From positions 1,178,001 to 1,242,000 of the forward strand of contig NZ_WYEU01000002.1 of the NCBI RefSeq assembly GCF_015143595.1: DNA of 64,000 nucleotides, in the 5' to 3' direction. The translations under genes were made by a program, and so were the position numbers. This DNA comes from Sneathiella sp. P13V-1 (GTDB lineage: Bacteria > Pseudomonadota > Alphaproteobacteria > Sneathiellales > Sneathiellaceae). Shown here piece by piece: positions 1 to 8,625 of this stretch (its first letter is position 1; each line of letters begins with the position of its first letter). The notes beneath the pieces are model-generated. The model did no database searches, had not been told where the DNA came from, and worked only from the letters and a program-made list of their open reading frames with translations.

Positions 1-352
1 GAATAATGTGCATTGAAAGCGCAAAGAGAAATGCCAGCAGGAAATTCATGGCGGGACCGGCGAGTGCCACCCAAACCATATCTCTTCGAGGCTGATGAAG
101 TCTGCCAAAATTGACGGGAACAGGCTTCGCATATCCAAATAAGAATGGGGCCCCAATCAATAGCAGTGCGCCAGGGATAAAAATTGTTCCCATAGGATCG
201 ATGTGCTTAATAGGGTTCAGTGTCACACGTCCTAAAGACTTTGCTGTAGGATCTCCCAGTTTCCATGCCGCGTAAGCATGACCAGCCTCATGCAGTGTGA
301 TACCCAAAAGGGCGGGAATGACCCATGTTGACGCGGTATACAAAATTTCCAT
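1..352 (-). CDS. Site-2 protease family (M50) membrane metalloprotease, C-terminus beyond window
   Basis: This is the N-terminal 117 or so codons of an intramembrane zinc metalloprotease; the reading frame is open to the window edge, so the C-terminus is missing. The ATG lies at 350-352 on the minus strand. The protein starts with a hydrophobic helix that contains the zinc-binding motif HEAGH (about residues 21-25), followed by conserved Asn-Pro and Asp-Pro residues, a Gly-rich hydrophobic stretch and the segment ALAGPAMNFLLA, typical of M50 rhomboid-like site-2 proteases. It starts 8 bases after the nagZ stop codon, so it is probably the next gene in the nagZ operon. The substrate is unknown. 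The family call is firm; the physiological role is not inferable. Confidence 0.85.
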   Translation of the reverse strand, partial: MEILYTASTWVIPALLGITLHEAGHAYAAWKLGDPTAKSLGRVTLNPIKHIDPMGTIFIPGALLLIGAPFLFGYAKPVPVNFGRLHQPRRDMVWVALAGPAMNFLLAFLFALSMHII

Positions 353-360
353 ATTGAGAC

Positions 361-1407
361 CTAATCAAGAAGCTCTAGCAGTGAAGCAAGCTCATCTTTT
401 TTCTGAGAGATGTTATTCAGCACAGGAATACTATCCTCATCAGGAAGTTGAGCAGCACCCTGCTTAACGCGATATATAACTTTTTCGCTCATTTGCGGAA
501 TAGCAGATGCAATGTCCTTCATTTCGTCCATCTTACCTGAGCAATGAAGAAGAATATCAATGCCCGCATCGAAGGCTCTCACCGCCCTCTCCCTCAAACT
601 TCCCTTGAGGGCATTCATATTCAGATCATCTGATAGCAAAAGACCATCAAAACCGATTTCACCGCGAATAATCTCTTCAATTACTTTTTGAGATTGCGTT
701 GCAGGGTTATCAGGATCGATCTGATCAAAGACAATATGTGCCGTCATCCCCCAAGGCGCCGCCGATAGCGACTTAAATGGCTTAAAATCAGATGCTTTTA
801 GTTCTTCGAGCGTTGCGCTGACCGTAGGTAATTCATGATGGCTATCAACGGTTCCCCGCCCATGCCCGGGAATATGTTTAATAACCGGCATGATGCCATT
901 TTCGACATAGTAATCCATGATAGTTGCAGCCAATTTGACAAGAACATCATTGTCCTGATGCAGCGCGCGGTCGCCTATTACATTGGATGTTTCTGCGCGT
1001 GGCAGATCAAGACACGGACTGCAATTCACATTAAATCCGACAGATTTCAGATCATTGATAATCAGTTCAGTTGCTAGAACTGCTGCTCTTTCCGAAATGG
1101 CAGGATCTATATCGTAAAGTGCACCAATTTTCCCGAGAGCAGGTGCCTGAAACCAATGGGGCGGACGCATGCGCTGCACCCTACCCCCTTCCTGATCCAC
1201 AAGAACCGGGGCGTCACTTCGCTCTACGCAACTGCGCAAGTCTGAAATCAACTGTCTAAGTTGATCTGGATTATCAACACTTCGGGCAAACAGAATAAAG
1301 CCGAAAGGCTTCTCTGACTGAAAGAACGATTTCTCCTCCGCCGAGAGTTCTGTCCCCGCAACGGAGAAAATGATCGGCTTTACACCTGAAAGATCAGTTT
1401 CGTGCAA
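361..1407 (-). CDS. nagZ: Beta-N-acetylhexosaminidase NagZ (GH3)
   Basis: NagZ is a cytoplasmic glycoside hydrolase family 3 enzyme that removes N-acetylglucosamine from GlcNAc-anhydro-muropeptides during cell-wall recycling. The 348-residue protein carries the NagZ signatures KHIPGHG and DSHHELP (the mobile loop with the catalytic His/Asp pair) and LLSDDLNM (the nucleophile Asp). Length is normal for the family. The start is a TTG, because no ATG lies near the N-terminus; AGGA stands about 10 bases upstream inside the preceding SPOR gene, which it overlaps by 14 bases. The order ArgS-type protein, SPOR protein, NagZ is characteristic of alphaproteobacteria. The GlcNAc it releases could feed the kinase/NagA genes near 39 kb, but that link is inference. 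Confidence 0.95.
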   Translation of the reverse strand: MHETDLSGVKPIIFSVAGTELSAEEKSFFQSEKPFGFILFARSVDNPDQLRQLISDLRSCVERSDAPVLVDQEGGRVQRMRPPHWFQAPALGKIGALYDIDPAISERAAVLATELIINDLKSVGFNVNCSPCLDLPRAETSNVIGDRALHQDNDVLVKLAATIMDYYVENGIMPVIKHIPGHGRGTVDSHHELPTVSATLEELKASDFKPFKSLSAAPWGMTAHIVFDQIDPDNPATQSQKVIEEIIRGEIGFDGLLLSDDLNMNALKGSLRERAVRAFDAGIDILLHCSGKMDEMKDIASAIPQMSEKVIYRVKQGAAQLPDEDSIPVLNNISQKKDELASLLELLD

Positions 1408-2359
1408 TGAGGCAGTCCTGTTTAACTTTTTTCAGGTTTGTACAAAGCTCATTTGCTCCGCCGCGATCTGCGTATGCACCTGCCTGCAATCTATAGAACA
1501 TGCCCTTGCCGGAGATTTCGATCGACTGAACTTTGTGCGGTAGCCCTTGAAGCAATGCATCATGTTTCTTTTGCAAGTCCAACCATGCTTTTTCTGCGGC
1601 ATCAGTGGATCTGAAAGCCCCAAGCTGAACACGGTATGCAGGGCCCTTAATCGCAGGTTCTTTTGGAACTGCGACAGCTACTTTCTTCGCTTCTTTTTCA
1701 GCCTCGATTACTTTTTCAACTTTTGTCTCAGAGGTCGGGGTAGAAGAAGATGAAGTACCTGTTACAGCTGTGGCAGTGTCTGTCACTTCTTTGACGACAT
1801 CTTCCACCTTCTCCTTGGCAGTGGTCGCGACGCTTTCTGTTGCTTTTGCAACTTCGGTTACTTTTTCTTCAACAGCAGAATTTACTTCTTCTGCTTTCTT
1901 CTCTACCGATTTTGCAACATCAGCGGCTTTTTCCTCAGCCTTCTTCATAAGATTTTCTGCTTTGCCTACCAACGAAGATGCAGGTTTCTCATCTTCCGAA
2001 ATCTCAACAGGTGCAGGATCTTTCACCGGTGTTTCCGGAGCCTTCATCAGTTTTTCAACCTTCTCTTCTTCTTTTTCAGCATTGAGAACGTTAAAAACCT
2101 TTTTATCCTGATGAGGGATTTCCATACCGCCGGGATCTTCAGGCTTTTCCTTTACCGGGCTTGTGTCAGCCTTAATAATGGGCGGGGCAAGCTGTACGCC
2201 TTTTTTGACACCTTGGTCATAAGCATACCAAATCCCGATACCAAACCCGGCAACAATTAAGACCGCCAGTCCCGCGCCAAGCAGTTTCCAGCGATTTACA
2301 GTCGGCACATATTCATCTTCGAAGAAATCGCCATCATCAAATTCCTGATTATCACTCAC
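1394..2359 (-). CDS. SPOR-domain inner-membrane protein
   Basis: This 321-residue protein has a short acidic cytoplasmic N-terminus, one transmembrane helix (about residues 25-48), a long Lys/Glu/Ala-rich low-complexity periplasmic linker (about 60-230) and a C-terminal SPOR domain (about 238-318), which in this family binds denuded septal peptidoglycan glycans. The start is a GTG that shares its G with the TAG stop of the upstream ArgS-like gene (TAGTG); GAGGAG lies 9 bases upstream. Its 3' end overlaps nagZ by 14 bases, so the three genes are probably translationally coupled. A cell-division or envelope-remodelling role is inferred from the SPOR domain and the neighbouring nagZ. The linker is repetitive in composition and probably disordered. 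Confidence 0.9.
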   Translation of the reverse strand: MSDNQEFDDGDFFEDEYVPTVNRWKLLGAGLAVLIVAGFGIGIWYAYDQGVKKGVQLAPPIIKADTSPVKEKPEDPGGMEIPHQDKKVFNVLNAEKEEEKVEKLMKAPETPVKDPAPVEISEDEKPASSLVGKAENLMKKAEEKAADVAKSVEKKAEEVNSAVEEKVTEVAKATESVATTAKEKVEDVVKEVTDTATAVTGTSSSSTPTSETKVEKVIEAEKEAKKVAVAVPKEPAIKGPAYRVQLGAFRSTDAAEKAWLDLQKKHDALLQGLPHKVQSIEISGKGMFYRLQAGAYADRGGANELCTNLKKVKQDCLIARN

Positions 2360-3357
2360 TAAATGAACTCCTCGCCCCTGTCGTAGCCCAAAATCTCCAG
2401 ACCGCCAATTAGCAATGATCTCAAAGATTTAAACAATTGTCTTCGCAACAAACCATGTTCCTCATCTAGGAGATACTCCGAAGATTCCGGTCGTTGGGTT
2501 TTGTATATTTCAAAAAATAGCAGGCTTGCCCGTTGCAGGAAACCCGTCAAATTAACCATGTCTTTCTCAGTGAAGCATTTTTCTGCGGCGATAGGCCAGG
2601 AAACAAGATGCTGGCAAAGCGCCTTCTCTTCCTCAAATAGCAACGCACCACTTGAGGCTTTTTGCACCACGCCGCCCAGATGGAGCACACCTTCCGCTTC
2701 TGCTTTGTTCAATAAGCGCTTAATCGTGGCTTCCGCATAGGGAAGCGAAAAAACCGGATTTTCATAGGACCGGTCCAGCGCTTTTACTGAGCTAAAATGG
2801 ATTGCAAATTCATCATTATTGGAAAGTAAGGCAATTTTGAGGGACTGTTCTCCGCATTTGGATATGGCAGCATCACTTCTAAACCCCTTTAGCTCGCTCG
2901 CCTGATCTGCCACTGCAGTAACTTTGACCCCAAGAATTTTACCAAGCTGTTCGAGGGCTTCCCCATTCCACCGGCTTTTTAAAGACAATAAATCCTCTTT
3001 GGAGCTTGCAACACAAAGAGAAACATTATCTGTTGTTATTAAATCCTGGCCATAATGCAGACCATTTTTTTCGATACTCTCCAATTCCCCACTCCAGAAA
3101 GAGGGTCGAAAATGAATATTGAGATCAAGACTGCTTGACACCTCAATTTTTTGCACTTCTGATATTTCTTCCAGGCGCTTAATCAGATCTTCTGCTTTAG
3201 AGACATTATGTGGAAGAAGTTGCAACACATTGCTGCATACATCTCCCCACTTAAGATCTCGCGGCGTGCGGAGTTTTAATTGGTCCGGATCCCCTCCGTT
3301 TTCTTGCAAAAACTCAGATAATAAATTGCGAAGCCGGTCTGCAGTTTGGGTTTTCAT
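2359..3357 (-). CDS. Truncated, catalytically degenerate arginyl-tRNA synthetase (ArgS)-like protein
   Basis: The 332-residue protein sits where alphaproteobacteria normally carry argS, directly ahead of the SPOR and nagZ genes. Its N-terminus matches the ArgS additional domain (RTPRDLKWGDVCSN, then FRPSFW and LHYGQ). Its C-terminus matches the ArgS DALR anticodon-binding domain (ENPVFSLPYAEATI, equivalent to the usual DNPVFYVQYAHAR, followed by the helical tail). Where a normal enzyme has the NPTGPxHVGH catalytic motif this protein reads SSKEDLLSLKSRWN, and roughly 200 residues of the Rossmann catalytic core, including the KMSK region, are absent (typical ArgS is about 580 residues). It cannot be an active synthetase by any known mechanism. 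The frame is intact, so it may be a functional ArgS-derived protein rather than debris. The ATG at 3357 is preferred to the TTG at 3381. No dgt gene is present beside it. Confidence 0.75.
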   Translation of the reverse strand: MKTQTADRLRNLLSEFLQENGGDPDQLKLRTPRDLKWGDVCSNVLQLLPHNVSKAEDLIKRLEEISEVQKIEVSSSLDLNIHFRPSFWSGELESIEKNGLHYGQDLITTDNVSLCVASSKEDLLSLKSRWNGEALEQLGKILGVKVTAVADQASELKGFRSDAAISKCGEQSLKIALLSNNDEFAIHFSSVKALDRSYENPVFSLPYAEATIKRLLNKAEAEGVLHLGGVVQKASSGALLFEEEKALCQHLVSWPIAAEKCFTEKDMVNLTGFLQRASLLFFEIYKTQRPESSEYLLDEEHGLLRRQLFKSLRSLLIGGLEILGYDRGEEFI

Positions 3358-3461
3358 TCTTGATCTTAAAATCCGCACCAATTGACAAAAGACGTGATGA
3401 TAAATACATCATTACTACATATGGTGTTCCGAAACAGTTTTATTTTGATGGATGGGTTTAA

Positions 3462-3812
3462 ATGACATTGCAGATGACAGAAGAGACACCGGTTAAATTG
3501 ACCGACTCAGCTGCTGATCGGATCAATGCGATCGTCGATGAGCTCAAAAGTGAGAAAAAAATGCTGCGTGTTGCCGTAAACGGTGGTGGCTGCTCTGGTT
3601 TTCAATACAGTTTTGATCTGGAAGACACTCAAAATCCAGATGACCTAGTGGTGGAAAATAAAGGAGCGACTCTGCTGGTTGACAACATCTCCCTTATGTA
3701 TCTCGCTGGATCAGAGGTAGATTATGTGAGCGACCTGATTGGCAGTGCTTTCCAGATTAAGAACCCAAATGCCACGGCATCCTGCTCTTGTGGCTCCTCC
3801 TTCTCCATTTAG
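3462..3812 (+). CDS. erpA: A-type iron-sulfur carrier ErpA
   Basis: ErpA is a small A-type carrier that receives Fe-S clusters from the assembly scaffold and delivers them to target apoproteins. The 116-residue protein has the three conserved cysteines in the usual places: GGCSGFQY in the middle and the C-terminal CSCGSSF. The gene is divergent from the ArgS-like gene, with an 80-104 base promoter region between them depending on that gene's start, which is the usual alphaproteobacterial arrangement except that dgt is missing. A second A-type carrier, SufA, is encoded at 14980. An in-frame ATG four codons downstream is an alternative start. Confidence 0.93.
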   Translation: MTLQMTEETPVKLTDSAADRINAIVDELKSEKKMLRVAVNGGGCSGFQYSFDLEDTQNPDDLVVENKGATLLVDNISLMYLAGSEVDYVSDLIGSAFQIKNPNATASCSCGSSFSI

Positions 3813-3826
3813 GGAACGAAATTCAC

Positions 3827-4594
3827 ATGAAAATTGCAAGCTGGAATGTGAATTCCGTGAAAGCCCGCCTGCCTATCCTGCTGGATTACTTAACGACAAC
3901 TCAAATTGACGTGCTTTGCTTGCAAGAGCTCAAATGTATTGACGAGAATTTCCCTCGCGAAGAGGTAGAAGCCCTTGGGTATAATGTCGAAACCCATGGG
4001 CAAAAAACATATAACGGTGTTGCTATCCTTTCTAAGCACCCCATTGAAGATGTGATGCGCCGTCTTCCGGGGGATGATGCAGATGAACAAGCCCGCTATA
4101 TTGAAGCCACTATTAAAGGCGTCCGTGTTGCATCAATTTACCTTCCAAATGGCAATCCAATTAACACTGAGAAATTCCCCTACAAGTTAGGTTGGATGGA
4201 ACGCCTGTTTGATCGCGCGACCCATCTTCTTTCGCAACAAAAACCTGTGGTTCTGGCGGGAGACTACAATGTTATCCCTCAGGATGAGGATTGCTATGAT
4301 GTAAAGGCATGGGAAGGTGATGCCCTGACCCAGCCTGAAAGCCGTCAAGCGTTTCGAAAAATTCTGAATGCCGGATATGCGGACGCGTATCGAACCTTTA
4401 CGCCCGAAGTAAACTACACTTATTGGGATTACCAGCGTGGTGCCTGGCAAAAAGACAATGGCATTCGCATCGATCACCTATTGCTATCTCCACAAGCGAT
4501 GGACTGCTTGACCGAAGTTGGCATCGACAAGAAGCCACGTGGTATGGAAAAACCTTCTGATCACACCCCAATCTGGGTGAACCTCTCAGATTAA
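3827..4594 (+). CDS. xth: Exodeoxyribonuclease III
   Basis: Exodeoxyribonuclease III cuts DNA 5' of abasic sites and degrades duplex ends 3' to 5' in base excision repair. The 255-residue protein shows the endonuclease/exonuclease/phosphatase motifs: SWNVNSVKAR at the start, CLQELK (metal-binding Glu), GDYNV (Asp and Asn of the active site) and the terminal SDHTPIW (Asp-His pair). The start is the ATG at 3827, preceded by AGGGA about 11 bases upstream; an upstream in-frame ATG at 3788 lies inside erpA and is unlikely to be used. Its position 14 bases after erpA suggests co-transcription with erpA. Confidence 0.95.
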   Translation: MKIASWNVNSVKARLPILLDYLTTTQIDVLCLQELKCIDENFPREEVEALGYNVETHGQKTYNGVAILSKHPIEDVMRRLPGDDADEQARYIEATIKGVRVASIYLPNGNPINTEKFPYKLGWMERLFDRATHLLSQQKPVVLAGDYNVIPQDEDCYDVKAWEGDALTQPESRQAFRKILNAGYADAYRTFTPEVNYTYWDYQRGAWQKDNGIRIDHLLLSPQAMDCLTEVGIDKKPRGMEKPSDHTPIWVNLSD

Positions 4595-4705
4595 ATAATA
4601 ATCACTTTAGTAATTCATTAGCTTTTCCTAGGTATTTTGCGCTGCTAAGCAAAGTACAAGGTGGATGTATGTATCGTCGATTATTGTCTTTGGGATGGGG
4701 GATAA

Positions 4706-6355
4706 GTGATAAACAAGCCGCTAAATATCAACAGCTTAACTGCAAGCTGTTTCGATTATCTTGACCAAGGCATCAGCGTGACTGATGCTGAGTTCAAACT
4801 TGTTTTCTGCAACAAGCAATTCATGGAAATTCTTGAACTACCGGAAGAAATGTTCCTGTCAGGCGATACCACACTTGAAGATGTGTTTCGGTATAACGCA
4901 TTGCGCGGTGAATATGGTGAAGGTAATATCGAAGATCAGGTAAAAGAGCGATTAGACCTTGCGCGATTGCGCAAAGCCCACTCATTTGAACGCATTCGCC
5001 CAGACGGAACCGTCATCAAGGTAGTAGGCAACCCTCTTCCCGATGGTGGATTTGTCACCACTTATACCGACGTAACTGACAACTACAATGATCGCCACGC
5101 CTTGGAGATTGCAAATCGATTGCTGGATGAGCGAGTACGGCAAAGAACTGAAGAGCTTAACAATAGCAAACAAGAGCTTTCAGACAAAGCGATGACTCTA
5201 GAAATGGTAATGGCTAACGTTACTTCGGGATTGGCGTTATTCGACAAGGATCACAAACTATCTGTGTGGAATGATCAGTTCTTTGACATGACTGATTTCC
5301 CTTCCTATTTAAGCATTAAGGGCACCCCAGCGCGAGAGTTTATACAGTTTGATGTAGACAAGTATCAATATGGATTGAACGCGACCATCGATACGACTGA
5401 CAAGATCCTTGAACATTTTGATACAGATATACATCTGCAATTTATGCACCATCGTAAAAACGGGCGCATCTTTGACATTCACTATTTGCCAATCGCCGCA
5501 GGTGTTCTGGTTTCTTTGACAGATATTACAGACCAGAAAAAGGCGGAGGACTTTCTGCGCCGTAACAACGAAATTCTGGAAGAGCACGTTCAGGAAAGAA
5601 CGGCTGCTTTGCAAACTGCAAAAGAGCAGGCAGAAAATGCCAGTGCATCAAAATCTGCATTCCTTGCAAATATGAGCCATGAACTTCGGACACCTCTCAA
5701 CGCCATTATTGGCTTTTCCGAACTGCTAATGATGAATGACTATGAGTTGATCAATAAAGAAAAGCGCCACGAATATTCTGAAGGTATCAATTCCGCAGGT
5801 GTCCATCTTCTGCAGGTGATCAACGACATTCTTGACGTTGCAAAGATTGAGGCCAATCAGGTTAACCTGATGGACCAGGAACTGGAACTTCATTCCCTCC
5901 TTGAAAGCTGTAAGCAATTGGTAAGTGTCGCTGCTGAAAAGAGGAACCTTTCCGTAACCACGATAATGCAGGAAGGTCTGCCCTATATACTGGGTGATCC
6001 GACTCGCTTGAAACAGATCATTGTAAACTTACTATCCAATGCCGTTAAGTTCACTGACCCCGGTGGTGAAGTTAAGATCGATGTGGGCAGGTGTGATCGC
6101 GGCGGTGTCCGAATTAGCGTTATTGATAGCGGTATCGGTATTGCTAAGGAAAATATCGCCCATGTCCTGACACAGTTTGGGCAAATCCATTCTGCATATA
6201 ACCGCGAACATCAAGGAACTGGTTTGGGCCTTAGCCTGGTACGATTATTGACCGAAGCGCATGATGGTTTTTTCAAACTGGAAAGCGAATTAGGCGTTGG
6301 AACGCGCGCGCATGTTCACCTTCCGGCTGAACGGCTATGTATACAACAGGCTTGA
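4706..6355 (+). CDS. Soluble PAS-PAS sensor histidine kinase
   Basis: This 549-residue histidine kinase has no transmembrane segment. It contains two PAS-type sensor domains (about residues 10-125 and 165-285, the second ending in VSLTDITDQKKAE), each followed by a coiled coil (ERVRQRTEELN and EEHVQERTAAL). A HisKA dimerisation domain with the phospho-accepting His in ANMSHELRTPLNAI follows, and then a HATPase domain with N-box NLLSNAVKFT, G1 DSGIGI and G2 GTGLGLSL. The start is a GTG with GGGGGAT upstream. There is no receiver domain and no adjacent response regulator, so its partner is unknown. The PAS_5-type protein 58 bases downstream may be co-expressed. The signal sensed cannot be inferred. 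Confidence 0.9.
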   Translation: MINKPLNINSLTASCFDYLDQGISVTDAEFKLVFCNKQFMEILELPEEMFLSGDTTLEDVFRYNALRGEYGEGNIEDQVKERLDLARLRKAHSFERIRPDGTVIKVVGNPLPDGGFVTTYTDVTDNYNDRHALEIANRLLDERVRQRTEELNNSKQELSDKAMTLEMVMANVTSGLALFDKDHKLSVWNDQFFDMTDFPSYLSIKGTPAREFIQFDVDKYQYGLNATIDTTDKILEHFDTDIHLQFMHHRKNGRIFDIHYLPIAAGVLVSLTDITDQKKAEDFLRRNNEILEEHVQERTAALQTAKEQAENASASKSAFLANMSHELRTPLNAIIGFSELLMMNDYELINKEKRHEYSEGINSAGVHLLQVINDILDVAKIEANQVNLMDQELELHSLLESCKQLVSVAAEKRNLSVTTIMQEGLPYILGDPTRLKQIIVNLLSNAVKFTDPGGEVKIDVGRCDRGGVRISVIDSGIGIAKENIAHVLTQFGQIHSAYNREHQGTGLGLSLVRLLTEAHDGFFKLESELGVGTRAHVHLPAERLCIQQA

Positions 6356-6413
6356 TTTAAACATTAGAAATTTAATATCCTAAGCTTGTGTGTCTGGTGT
6401 AGAGATTTGAGTT

Positions 6414-6926
6414 ATGTTGCATTTCAAAGGGTTCGAAAATTCGTCATCTCTGATTAAGGAGGGATATGCGTATTGGAAGTCTAAATGCACCAATAATCAA
6501 ATCCCAAGCTGGTCAGATATAAATCCTTCGGAAATTAAGGCCCTGCTGCCGAATGTGGTCATTATTCACGTAAGCCATGAACCACTTGATTTTGTGGAGA
6601 GAATTACCGGCGACGCGATCCTTTCCCGTAGCGCTCAAAACAGTATGGGAAAAAGCTGGCGCGAATATGAAGGCCGCGGCCCTGACAGCCAGATCTGGAA
6701 AGTTATGGAAGAGGTAATCAACTTGGAACAACCAAGTTTCCATAGTATTCCGTATGTAGGTCCCCATCAGGAATTTATGAAAGTTGATACTGTCGCCTGC
6801 CCCCTAGGAGGTAAAGATGGTCAAATCACGCGACTTTTGGTCTTTGTAGATTATTTACCAACAGACGATTCTGACGATATTTCCAAATTTTTTGTTCCTG
6901 AATCAACCAAACGTTTTACTATTTAA
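6414..6926 (+). CDS. Stand-alone PAS_5-type domain protein
   Basis: The 170-residue protein resembles the single-domain PAS_5 family found in many copies in Rhodospirillales and related alphaproteobacteria. Visible features are the N-terminal segment YWKSKCTNNQIPSWSDINP, which matches the family's typical opening (a bulky residue, then P..SDIDP), and the central GDAILSRSAQNSMGKSWREY, where such proteins carry a Gly-Arg-type loop. There is no output domain, signal peptide or membrane helix. It follows the PAS histidine kinase at 4706, which suggests but does not prove functional coupling. The ligand and the biochemical role are unknown. Confidence 0.7.
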   Translation: MLHFKGFENSSSLIKEGYAYWKSKCTNNQIPSWSDINPSEIKALLPNVVIIHVSHEPLDFVERITGDAILSRSAQNSMGKSWREYEGRGPDSQIWKVMEEVINLEQPSFHSIPYVGPHQEFMKVDTVACPLGGKDGQITRLLVFVDYLPTDDSDDISKFFVPESTKRFTI

Positions 6927-7051
6927 TTTTCTATTCCACCCCAAATCACGACATTCAGTAGAATTAGTATGATCAGCGGTTGATTTCGCTCCCACGTACA
7001 AGTTTAATCTAGGAACTCAACTCCTCAACAAAAAAGCTCGATTTTCCAGAA

Positions 7052-7414
7052 ATGACACGTGAAGAATTTAACGCTTTTTGCGACCAACTAACCGCAACAA
7101 CAAATGTTGTTCAGTGGGGAAACTCAAGCGTATGGAAGGTGGGCGGAAAAATCTTCGCTATCTGTACCACATGGTCTGATGACCGAAGCGATTGCATATC
7201 GTTCAAATGCAGTGATTTATCTTTTAGTATATTGACTGAACAGGACGGCATTATCCCTGCCCCTTATCTCGCCCGTGCCAAATGGGTTCAGCTAGAAACT
7301 CCTACTGCCCTGAAAGATGAAGATATCAGAGATTATGTTCGTGAAGCCCACCGTATAATTTCTGGAAAACTTACAAAAAAGCAGCAGAAAGAGCTTGGCC
7401 TGTTAAGTGCTTAA
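7052..7414 (+). CDS. MmcQ/YjbR family protein
   Basis: The 120-residue protein has the length and features of the MmcQ/YjbR (CyaY-like fold) family: an N-terminal helix beginning TREEFNAFC, the strand VVQWGNSSVWKVGGKIFAIC, the segment PAPYLARAKWVQLE and a C-terminal helix with SGKLTKKQQKELGL. Members are often annotated as putative DNA-binding proteins, but the biochemical role is not established. The gene stands alone on the plus strand and converges with the gene at 7417 with only two bases between the coding regions, leaving no room for a conventional terminator. Confidence 0.85.
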   Translation: MTREEFNAFCDQLTATTNVVQWGNSSVWKVGGKIFAICTTWSDDRSDCISFKCSDLSFSILTEQDGIIPAPYLARAKWVQLETPTALKDEDIRDYVREAHRIISGKLTKKQQKELGLLSA

Positions 7415-7416
7415 CC

Positions 7417-7830
7417 TCAACGTTTACGCGCCAAATAGTCTATATAATCACCCTCAGGAATAAATGTGGCATCCGACACATCTCTATTGTAAATGTAAAC
7501 CCATGCCTTCCCCTTACCGCCATTAGGAAAATAAACATCCAGAGCTTCGCGGATGTATAGATGTGGTTTGGGAAAATCGTCTGAGCATTCCTCGTAATAA
7601 TCAAACTCAGAGAGAACTTTCCGCTCGTCTTTCAACAGAAACAGCTGTCCAAACACTTTTCCTGTATACTCATCACCCGTTATGACACCGGGATATGTCC
7701 CAAGATCGTACAGACTGCCGTGAATGTAGGCCTCACCAATAAGGTCGCAATACTCGTCGATTATGTGTGCCATTGGTGAGGTCGAGTCTTTTCTCAATGT
7801 CCCATACACAAACATTACATTACTGGGCAA
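7417..7830 (-). CDS. Gamma-glutamylcyclotransferase (GGCT)-like protein
   Basis: The 137-residue protein carries the GGCT-like signature FVYGTLRKD at its N-terminus, the segment GSLYDLGTYPGVI that forms the substrate pocket, and the acidic stretch FDYYEEC where the family's catalytic Glu lies. Members act on gamma-glutamyl peptides or serve as YtfP-like proteins; the substrate here is not inferable. The start is a TTG with AAAGGA 8 bases upstream; an in-frame ATG five codons later is an alternative. It lies 15 bases downstream of the DUF169 gene on the same strand, so the two are probably co-transcribed. Confidence 0.87.
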   Translation of the reverse strand: MPSNVMFVYGTLRKDSTSPMAHIIDEYCDLIGEAYIHGSLYDLGTYPGVITGDEYTGKVFGQLFLLKDERKVLSEFDYYEECSDDFPKPHLYIREALDVYFPNGGKGKAWVYIYNRDVSDATFIPEGDYIDYLARKR

Positions 7831-7845
7831 TTCAGGATCCTTTGT

Positions 7846-8625
7846 TTATTTCTTGCCATAGCTGAAACCTAACCCTGCTCTTGCATCATTCTGAACCCCA
7901 TAAGGTGGGATCGGATAACGCAGGCCATTGGCGCTCAGCTTTGCAAGTCCTTCAATGGTCTTGGGAAGAAATGCTGGCGGAATAGCCATCAGTAACTCAT
8001 CCTCCATAACCCCTCCATAACGTCTTTCAGCGAAACAAGGAAGAGACAAACTAGGCTGACCTGTGGAGAGAGCCCTTCCCCAACTATCGGCACAGGAACT
8101 TTCTCCAACGACGGAGAAATCAAATTTCTTAAATCCAGCCCATTGAAGCCCATTGATAAACAATATCATCTGCGCTGGTGTCATATAGAGCAGGCAAATA
8201 TCAGGCGGATCCAGGCGTCCAGTAGCCAACGGAGAAACAGCCATCGCTTTATATTGCCCATAAGGAACAACTGACATTTCTTCCTGATGCTTTTTTGTAT
8301 CCTCTGGTGTTTCCCACCAGACGCCAACATAACGTTCGCCTTTTTGCCATTCTTCATCTTGAGGATGCAGGCCAAGAACCGCACCACATTGAGAACCGAC
8401 AAAATCTTCTGCGGTTGCGCCAACAGTCCATCCCAAGCGGCACGCCTGCCCCACGATCTGATCCGCCGTATGAATATCTGAGGGCCGTCGAATTTTTGGA
8501 ATGGCTTCCATTTCTTCTACTGTTTCAAACAGTTTCATGCCAATGGGTGTTGCGCGTACCCGCAAATACTTATTCAGTCCATCCAAGATCGCTTCCCAGT
8601 CGTAATGACCTTCCAAAATGCTCAT
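7846..8625 (-). CDS. DUF169 family protein
   Basis: The 259-residue protein belongs to the DUF169 family by overall pattern: an N-terminal segment with LRVRATPIGMKLF, a Cys in VGQACRLGW followed by ATAEDFVGSQCGAVLGL, the segment YGQYKAMAVSPL, and C-terminal GESSCADSWGRALSTGQPSLSLPC with further conserved cysteines. The several conserved cysteines suggest a redox or metal role, but no function is established. There is no signal peptide. It is divergently oriented from the SUF operon, sharing a 233-base intergenic region, and co-oriented with the GGCT-like gene. Confidence 0.75.
   Translation of the reverse strand: MSILEGHYDWEAILDGLNKYLRVRATPIGMKLFETVEEMEAIPKIRRPSDIHTADQIVGQACRLGWTVGATAEDFVGSQCGAVLGLHPQDEEWQKGERYVGVWWETPEDTKKHQEEMSVVPYGQYKAMAVSPLATGRLDPPDICLLYMTPAQMILFINGLQWAGFKKFDFSVVGESSCADSWGRALSTGQPSLSLPCFAERRYGGVMEDELLMAIPPAFLPKTIEGLAKLSANGLRYPIPPYGVQNDARAGLGFSYGKK

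Follow-up and report, generated by a model that had tools for sequence, protein, structure and literature searches.

A derivative of arginyl-tRNA synthetase without a catalytic core is kept at the ancestral argS locus of Sneathiella

The 64,000-nucleotide stretch of Sneathiella sp. P13V-1 DNA analysed here (the window) encodes a 332-residue protein that descends from arginyl-tRNA synthetase (ArgS or ArgRS) and has lost the catalytic core of that enzyme. The protein, which we call ArgSL, occupies the ancestral argS slot, shares its descent with a gene in the one other sampled genus of the family Sneathiellaceae (order Sneathiellales), and is under purifying selection. The same genome encodes a full-length ArgS of another kind (type B), distinct from the native type A. 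ArgSL and its parts map to the window as follows.

2359..3357, minus strand: ArgS-derived protein without a catalytic core (ArgSL), 332 residues (open reading frame, Pfam, profile matches, alignment)
3058..3357, minus strand: N-terminal ArgS domain of ArgSL, residues 1–100 (alignment to ArgS)
2914..3021, minus strand: degenerate remnant of the first Rossmann strand and helix at the HIGH position, residues 113–148, with SSKEDLLSLKSRWN (alignment)
2362..2877, minus strand: stem-contact-like segment and DALR anticodon-binding domain, residues 161–332, with NPVFSLPYA (Pfam, PDB-sequence profile, alignment)

The frame is open from an ATG for 332 residues, or for 340 if translation starts at an upstream TTG. 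The first 100 and last 170 residues align with ArgS. Scores of the window protein alone lie close to or below the curated cut-offs: in Pfam, DALR_1 matches residues 215–333 of the 340-residue form with E 5.6e-4 (20.4 bits, cut-off 22.3; 22.0 bits at ArgSL in a scan of the genome, 22.5 with frame neighbours) and Arg_tRNA_synt_N matches residues 16–82 with E 0.12 (13.4 bits, cut-off 21.5), and the argS model TIGR00456 gives 32.3 bits (E 3.5e-8, cut-off 261.65). Judged by such matches, kinship with ArgS is clearer for the family than for this single member. We aligned 19 orthologues (from 19 of the 21 loci of the genus, window included; 327–348 residues, 358 columns). All 19 match TIGR00456 (best E 1.1e-17). 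Searching PDB sequences with the profile of this alignment gave a list of 15 hits, of which 8 are ArgRS, each aligned over two separate stretches (best E 4.5e-15), and two are streptokinase at E ~0.7, a chance match. A preliminary description, made from the sequence alone, had recognized ArgS-derived N-terminal and DALR parts with a degenerate HIGH region, and these matches, together with the tree below, bear it out.

Between the two conserved ends, SSKEDLLSLKSRWN of ArgSL aligns where ArgS has NPTGPMHVGHCRGAV, the first Rossmann strand and HIGH helix; downstream of this remnant the rest of the catalytic domain, including KMSK, is absent. HxGH and KMSK are found in none of the 19 orthologues, whereas all 16 type-A ArgS rows have MSK and 13 of them a strict [HT]xGH. 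KMSK alone would be no fair test for ArgS, because MSK is likewise missing from type-B ArgS (0 of 32 rows). Columns that are empty in every orthologue hold 227–276 residues (median 253) of type-A ArgS; the loss described earlier therefore stands, but its size was put too low at about 200 residues. Without HIGH, KMSK and about 250 core residues, ArgSL is not expected to charge tRNA. Type-A ArgS is the parent family of ArgSL, with the same slot, the N domain, the stretch NPVFYVQYAHAR to NPVFxxPYA and the DALR domain in common, and differs from it by the motifs and core residues just listed. We rejected an annotation error, a frame error or an assembly gap as the source of the short protein, because the same core is missing from the orthologues in other species, which are of similar length.

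A whole-genome search located the true full-length ArgS that had been predicted to lie elsewhere. This type-B enzyme of 589 residues (G000:C1:293412-295178, G000 being the genome of the window) adjoins genes read by eye as groES/groEL and carries the only match in the genome to the catalytic-domain family PF00750, which has none at ArgSL. It covers the argS model end to end and has a DALR match of its own at 103.9 bits. The window itself spans G000:C2:1178001-1242000. Type-B ArgS is found in 22 of the 24 genomes of the genus (G000–G023), the misses being G002 (91% complete, 220 contigs) and G016 (56% complete). Across 385 genomes sampled from the class it matches 58 at E <= 1e-60, five of them Sneathiella, and this patchy spread suggests that type B was acquired by horizontal transfer.

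The neighbours of ArgSL, two of them named by eye, are those of an ancestral argS.

1394..2359, minus strand: SPOR-domain (FtsN-like) gene with a GTG start (open reading frame, Pfam)
361..1407, minus strand: nagZ (beta-N-acetylhexosaminidase), ancestral neighbour
3462..3812, plus strand: erpA-like gene (named by eye), divergent ancestral neighbour
3827..4594, plus strand: xthA-like exonuclease III gene (named by eye), ancestral neighbour
2368..2373, minus strand: GAGGAG in the last ArgSL codons, presumed Shine-Dalgarno sequence of the SPOR gene

In 14 of the 16 type-A genomes read, the SPOR gene directly follows argS (it was not found in G351, and a contig ends there in G026), and in one of them, G033, xthA–erpA adjoins dgt–argS. 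The window has the order xthA–erpA, ArgSL, SPOR–nagZ; this match puts ArgSL in the slot of argS and shows dgt to be missing from the locus. The absence of dgt, noted in the preliminary description, holds for the locus but not for the genome, where dgt lies at G000:C1:1340693-1341943 (L194), away from the ancestral dgt–argS locus. The locus has thus been remodelled, as that description held. The 332-residue frame overlaps the start of the SPOR gene: its TAG stop and the GTG start share one base (G). The overlap TAGTG occurs in 10 of the 19 rows, the stop abuts GTG in 8, and a GTGA overlap is possible in L011. AAGGAG or GAGGAG stands ~8–9 bases ahead of the GTG, with AGGAG in 18 and GGAG in all 19 orthologues.

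In five loci (L014, L016, L018, L019 and L021) the frame is also open upstream of the ArgSL ATG, with the conserved translation RYRDY...NDVLIL..FVNRRS; this stretch is perhaps erpA-side regulatory DNA and not protein. A search of window positions 1–8000 for RNA families found none at the gathering threshold.

We built a tree from 326 columns and 68 rows, comprising 16 type-A ArgS (one genome twice), 32 type-B ArgS, 19 ArgSL and one remnant from G024, the one genome sampled from a second genus of the family. ArgSL and the G024 remnant form one clade on the type-A side (ultrafast bootstrap 98), and a second clade (98) unites the type-B ArgS of Sneathiella with that of G024. Branches are long, the deeper type-A nodes are poorly supported, and the rows contain no actinobacterial ArgS and no member of the NrtL family discussed below. 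The G024 gene (L094:1489-2481, minus strand) sits in the same slot and lacks the same core; it is more eroded, keeps GDLSS, GYLNL and NPAFLVPYADAR, and matches the ArgSL profile in two pieces (E 1e-5 and 1.3e-4).

ArgSL is present in 20 of the 23 congeners, and the three misses (G006, G010 and G016) are 66, 65 and 56% complete. The frame is intact at 19 of the 21 loci of the genus; a contig end splits the G002 copy. In G009 the reading frame of the ArgSL gene (L007) changes close to the start. The only ArgS found in that genome, the type-B gene at G009:C12:832409-833487, is in two pieces with a stop. Because the type-B frame is broken as well, a sequencing error is likely in G009. The ArgSL profile matched 321 of the 385 class genomes; among the matches listed outside the genus, open frames run to ~570–980 residues, as for ordinary ArgS, with three shorter exceptions of 386, 398 and 449 residues.

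Other families that carry type B have mostly lost the old gene cleanly. From the 53 type-B genomes outside the genus, 29 were taken, together with G024, into slot searches, which located erpA in all but five of the 29 (G070, G112, G113, G289 and G330). The resulting 24 loci are not independent events, several coming from one family or order. In 16 of them SPOR follows dgt with fewer than 200 bases between the frames (in G039, dgt matches only at E 4e-17), and in five SPOR stands beside erpA (G269, G373, G081, G296 and G305), which makes 21 loci without an argS remnant. Two loci could not be read, G027 (contig end) and G201 (another gene beside erpA). The ArgSL profile found a slot remnant in G024 only among the genomes of the slot searches, its other matches being type-B ArgS itself. 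The last of the 24 loci, in G202, has a 328-residue frame between dgt and SPOR (L182:1308-2294, plus strand). Its DALR part matches TIGR00456 with E 6.4e-7, and its N domain is unrecognizable; the type-B profile matches it with E 2.1e-6, the type-A profile with 0.0013 and the ArgSL profile not at all, and 200 shuffles scored far lower. No relative of this frame was found in the five other genomes of its order. It is possibly a second, independently trimmed ArgS, which to judge by these profiles could descend from either type.

ArgSL is under purifying selection, but loosely, and constraint is weaker than on its neighbours. In the 12 pairs of lowest synonymous difference, the ratio of nonsynonymous to synonymous change (dN/dS) is 0.23–0.50, not near 1, in keeping with the selection on the protein that had been proposed; in the same comparison it is 0.03–0.12 for xthA, 0.07–0.26 for SPOR and 0.06–0.18 for nagZ. 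Bootstrapping eight pairs left seven at 0.23–0.36 with upper 95% bounds of <=0.52, and the pair L004–L006 was saturated. When all pairs are taken together, the first, second and third codon positions of ArgSL differ by 0.49, 0.40 and 0.62. Twenty-eight of the 358 alignment columns are invariant, although two of them, M1 and Glu330, mean little. Mean column identity is highest in the stem-contact-like segment (0.48) and DALR (0.43–0.46) and falls to 0.32 for the first helix and 0.31 for the HIGH remnant, so that by this measure the anticodon end is better kept than the D-loop end. A well-kept stretch, LLFF, is hydrophobic and does not correspond to a known contact set.

ArgRS contacts tRNA-Arg at the D-loop, the stem, the anticodon arm and, with the catalytic core, the acceptor end. 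The main arginine determinant for the Escherichia coli enzyme is A20 (PMC9976931), which is gripped by F36, Q40, A78 and N84, with F82 stacking on it (PMC8975779). We mapped these D-loop pocket residues onto the 19 ArgSL rows through alignments. The equivalents of N84 and D38 are kept in 19 of 19 rows and that of G37 in 18; the F82 position is aromatic in 16 (always Tyr), as is the F36 position in 16. In the window protein, G38-D39 and N80 correspond to E. coli G37-D38 and N84 at the A20 pocket.

We favour the following history, to which we give about an even chance as a whole: a displaced ArgS was cut down to the parts that bind the body of the tRNA and has been kept as a non-charging tRNA-Arg binder, an adaptor or chaperone. 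An ancestor of the Sneathiellaceae would have come to depend on a type-B ArgS whose gene lies elsewhere in the chromosome. Relieved of charging, the native type-A argS would then have lost its catalytic core in place, between erpA/xthA and SPOR–nagZ, while the N domain (D-loop), the stem-contact segment and the DALR domain (anticodon arm) were kept and subsequently held by selection. ArgSL has the first three of the ArgRS contact parts and not the fourth, and should therefore hold tRNA-Arg, charged or not, with its acceptor end free. It might guide a modification enzyme, as DALRD3 guides METTL2, or hold uncharged tRNA-Arg; we prefer an adaptor or chaperone role because DALRD3 provides a case of a DALR protein delivering a methyltransferase to tRNA-Arg. 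The evolutionary part of this reading is much surer than the biochemical part.

Several observations weigh against it. ArgSL evolves fast, with a mean nonsynonymous difference of 0.44, compared with 0.11 for xthA (18 rows), 0.30 for SPOR and 0.26 for nagZ. The place of the A20-stacking F82 is taken by Asp in the window protein (D78), L003 and L005; the A78 position holds E, S or A and the Q40 position C, S or A, although Q40 is also absent from 16 of 16 type-A rows. Mean column identity of the N domain is 0.36, little above the 0.31 of the HIGH remnant, which lowers our confidence slightly. Because the stacking aromatic is Asp and the N domain is poorly conserved, we only infer tRNA-Arg binding for the window member, as we do the adaptor role. 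The invariant Glu330 was discarded as protein-level evidence, since the last ArgSL codons also carry the Shine-Dalgarno sequence of the SPOR gene, and this DNA accounts for the residue.

The loss of the stacking residue in 3 of 19 rows, the low N-domain conservation, the fast evolution and the LLFF stretch are also what would be seen if ArgSL worked away from tRNA, as a scaffold in protein–protein contacts, perhaps with the SPOR/FtsN-like product that is translated next from an overlapping, abutting or (L011) possibly overlapping start. We regard this as unlikely: the kept equivalents of N84, G37 and D38 and the NPVF stretch are of ArgS origin, the argS–SPOR adjacency is ancestral, and SPOR does without ArgSL wherever the locus is clean in other families (21 loci).

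A broader form of the favoured history is doubtful. It would have ArgS genes without a charging job repeatedly become non-charging readers of the tRNA-Arg body, with Sneathiellaceae as one case, G202 as perhaps another, independent one, and NrtL and DALRD3 as parallels, the bacterial ones guiding a tRNA-Arg-specific modification or quality-control enzyme. Our confidence in it drops slightly because the G202 frame matches type B better than type A.

Slow decay of a pseudogene whose frame happens to be still open is disfavoured and distinctly improbable. A dN/dS above that of the neighbours, the more eroded G024 form and the G009 frame change are in its favour; but dN/dS stays below 1, 26 invariant columns remain once M1 and Glu330 are set aside, and the only two frames of the genus that are not intact reflect a contig break (G002) and a probable sequencing error (G009).

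The embedded Shine-Dalgarno sequence and the overlapping or abutting start could instead mean that the frame is a translated leader that acts in cis by bringing ribosomes to SPOR–nagZ, its amino acids mattering little. Amino-acid constraint runs along the whole length, however, and not at the end alone, and in the clean loci SPOR simply sits close behind dgt or beside erpA; even allowing that dgt may act as the leader in 16 of those 21, this explanation is highly improbable. Very unlikely, too, is a role in trans as an accessory subunit of type-B ArgS, lending it a second grip on D-loop and anticodon. The two proteins do co-occur in the family, but 21 of the 24 located type-B loci outside it manage without ArgSL, and type B spans the whole argS model with a strong DALR domain of its own.

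A similar architecture has already been named by NCBI. NrtL (ArgS-related anticodon-binding protein, NCBIfam NF045898), an actinobacterial family, is ~330 residues long and likewise joins the N-terminal and DALR parts of ArgS without a catalytic middle. Eighteen of the 19 ArgSL members match its model at E <= 0.01 (best 4.1e-20), the window protein in one collinear stretch and 4 of 4 full-length ArgS tried in two; the curated cut-off of 340 bits was reached in none of 14 control genomes. That ArgSL is an NrtL gained from elsewhere and not the leftover of the native argS is extremely unlikely: the window protein does align collinearly (residues 24–275 to model 28–273 of 327) with an E of 1.5e-8, slightly better than the 3.5e-8 for argS, but it reaches only 34.0–34.5 bits and occupies the exact argS slot, and the match is not specific, because full-length alphaproteobacterial ArgS scores ~145–150 bits on the same model.

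DALRD3, the vertebrate guide of METTL2 for m3C in tRNA-Arg, also has an ArgRS-type DALR domain without a catalytic motif and binds tRNA-Arg; its authors give a duplicated ArgRS as one possible origin (PMC7237682). Its N-terminal part has no recognizable motif, whereas ArgSL keeps the ArgRS N domain. ArgSL is moreover a displaced enzyme in its own slot, and no METTL2-like partner is known here, none having been sought. SLIMP resembles the role proposed for ArgSL as a non-charging synthetase derivative that binds tRNA without aminoacylation (PMC9437257); it differs in coming possibly from a duplicated mitochondrial SerRS, and not from a displaced orthologue trimmed in place.

Non-charging synthetase derivatives are thus known. 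As far as the literature searched goes, three things are new: the displacement history in situ, the confinement of the trimmed gene to a single family while others have mostly lost the old gene cleanly, and the joint survival of the D-loop and DALR parts. In the open-licence PMC literature, no report of ArgSL was among the matches listed for NrtL, DALR and ArgRS topics, nothing was found for Sneathiella with aminoacyl-tRNA synthetase, nothing relevant to ArgRS replacement in Alphaproteobacteria appeared in the titles and abstract openings of the matches listed, and DALRD3 was the sole relevant subject for the DALR anticodon-binding domain in bacteria. The family offers a natural experiment: type B occurs in many alphaproteobacterial families, with the old gene gone at 21 of 24 loci outside, and here that gene has been trimmed and kept. 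If ArgSL binds tRNA-Arg, it would trace a path in situ from an essential synthetase to a tRNA adaptor, which could be compared with the ancestral slot and with the lineages that lost the gene, and would be a bacterial counterpart of DALRD3; it would also make testable a gene to which automated models give poor scores.

The former neighbour dgt was found in 14 of the 15 genomes of the genus searched, the one miss being G006 (66% complete). Its match in Sneathiella spans 1251 bases, compared with 1077 in the type-A genomes G025, G026, G031 and G033. Given its location and match span, dgt too may have been displaced.

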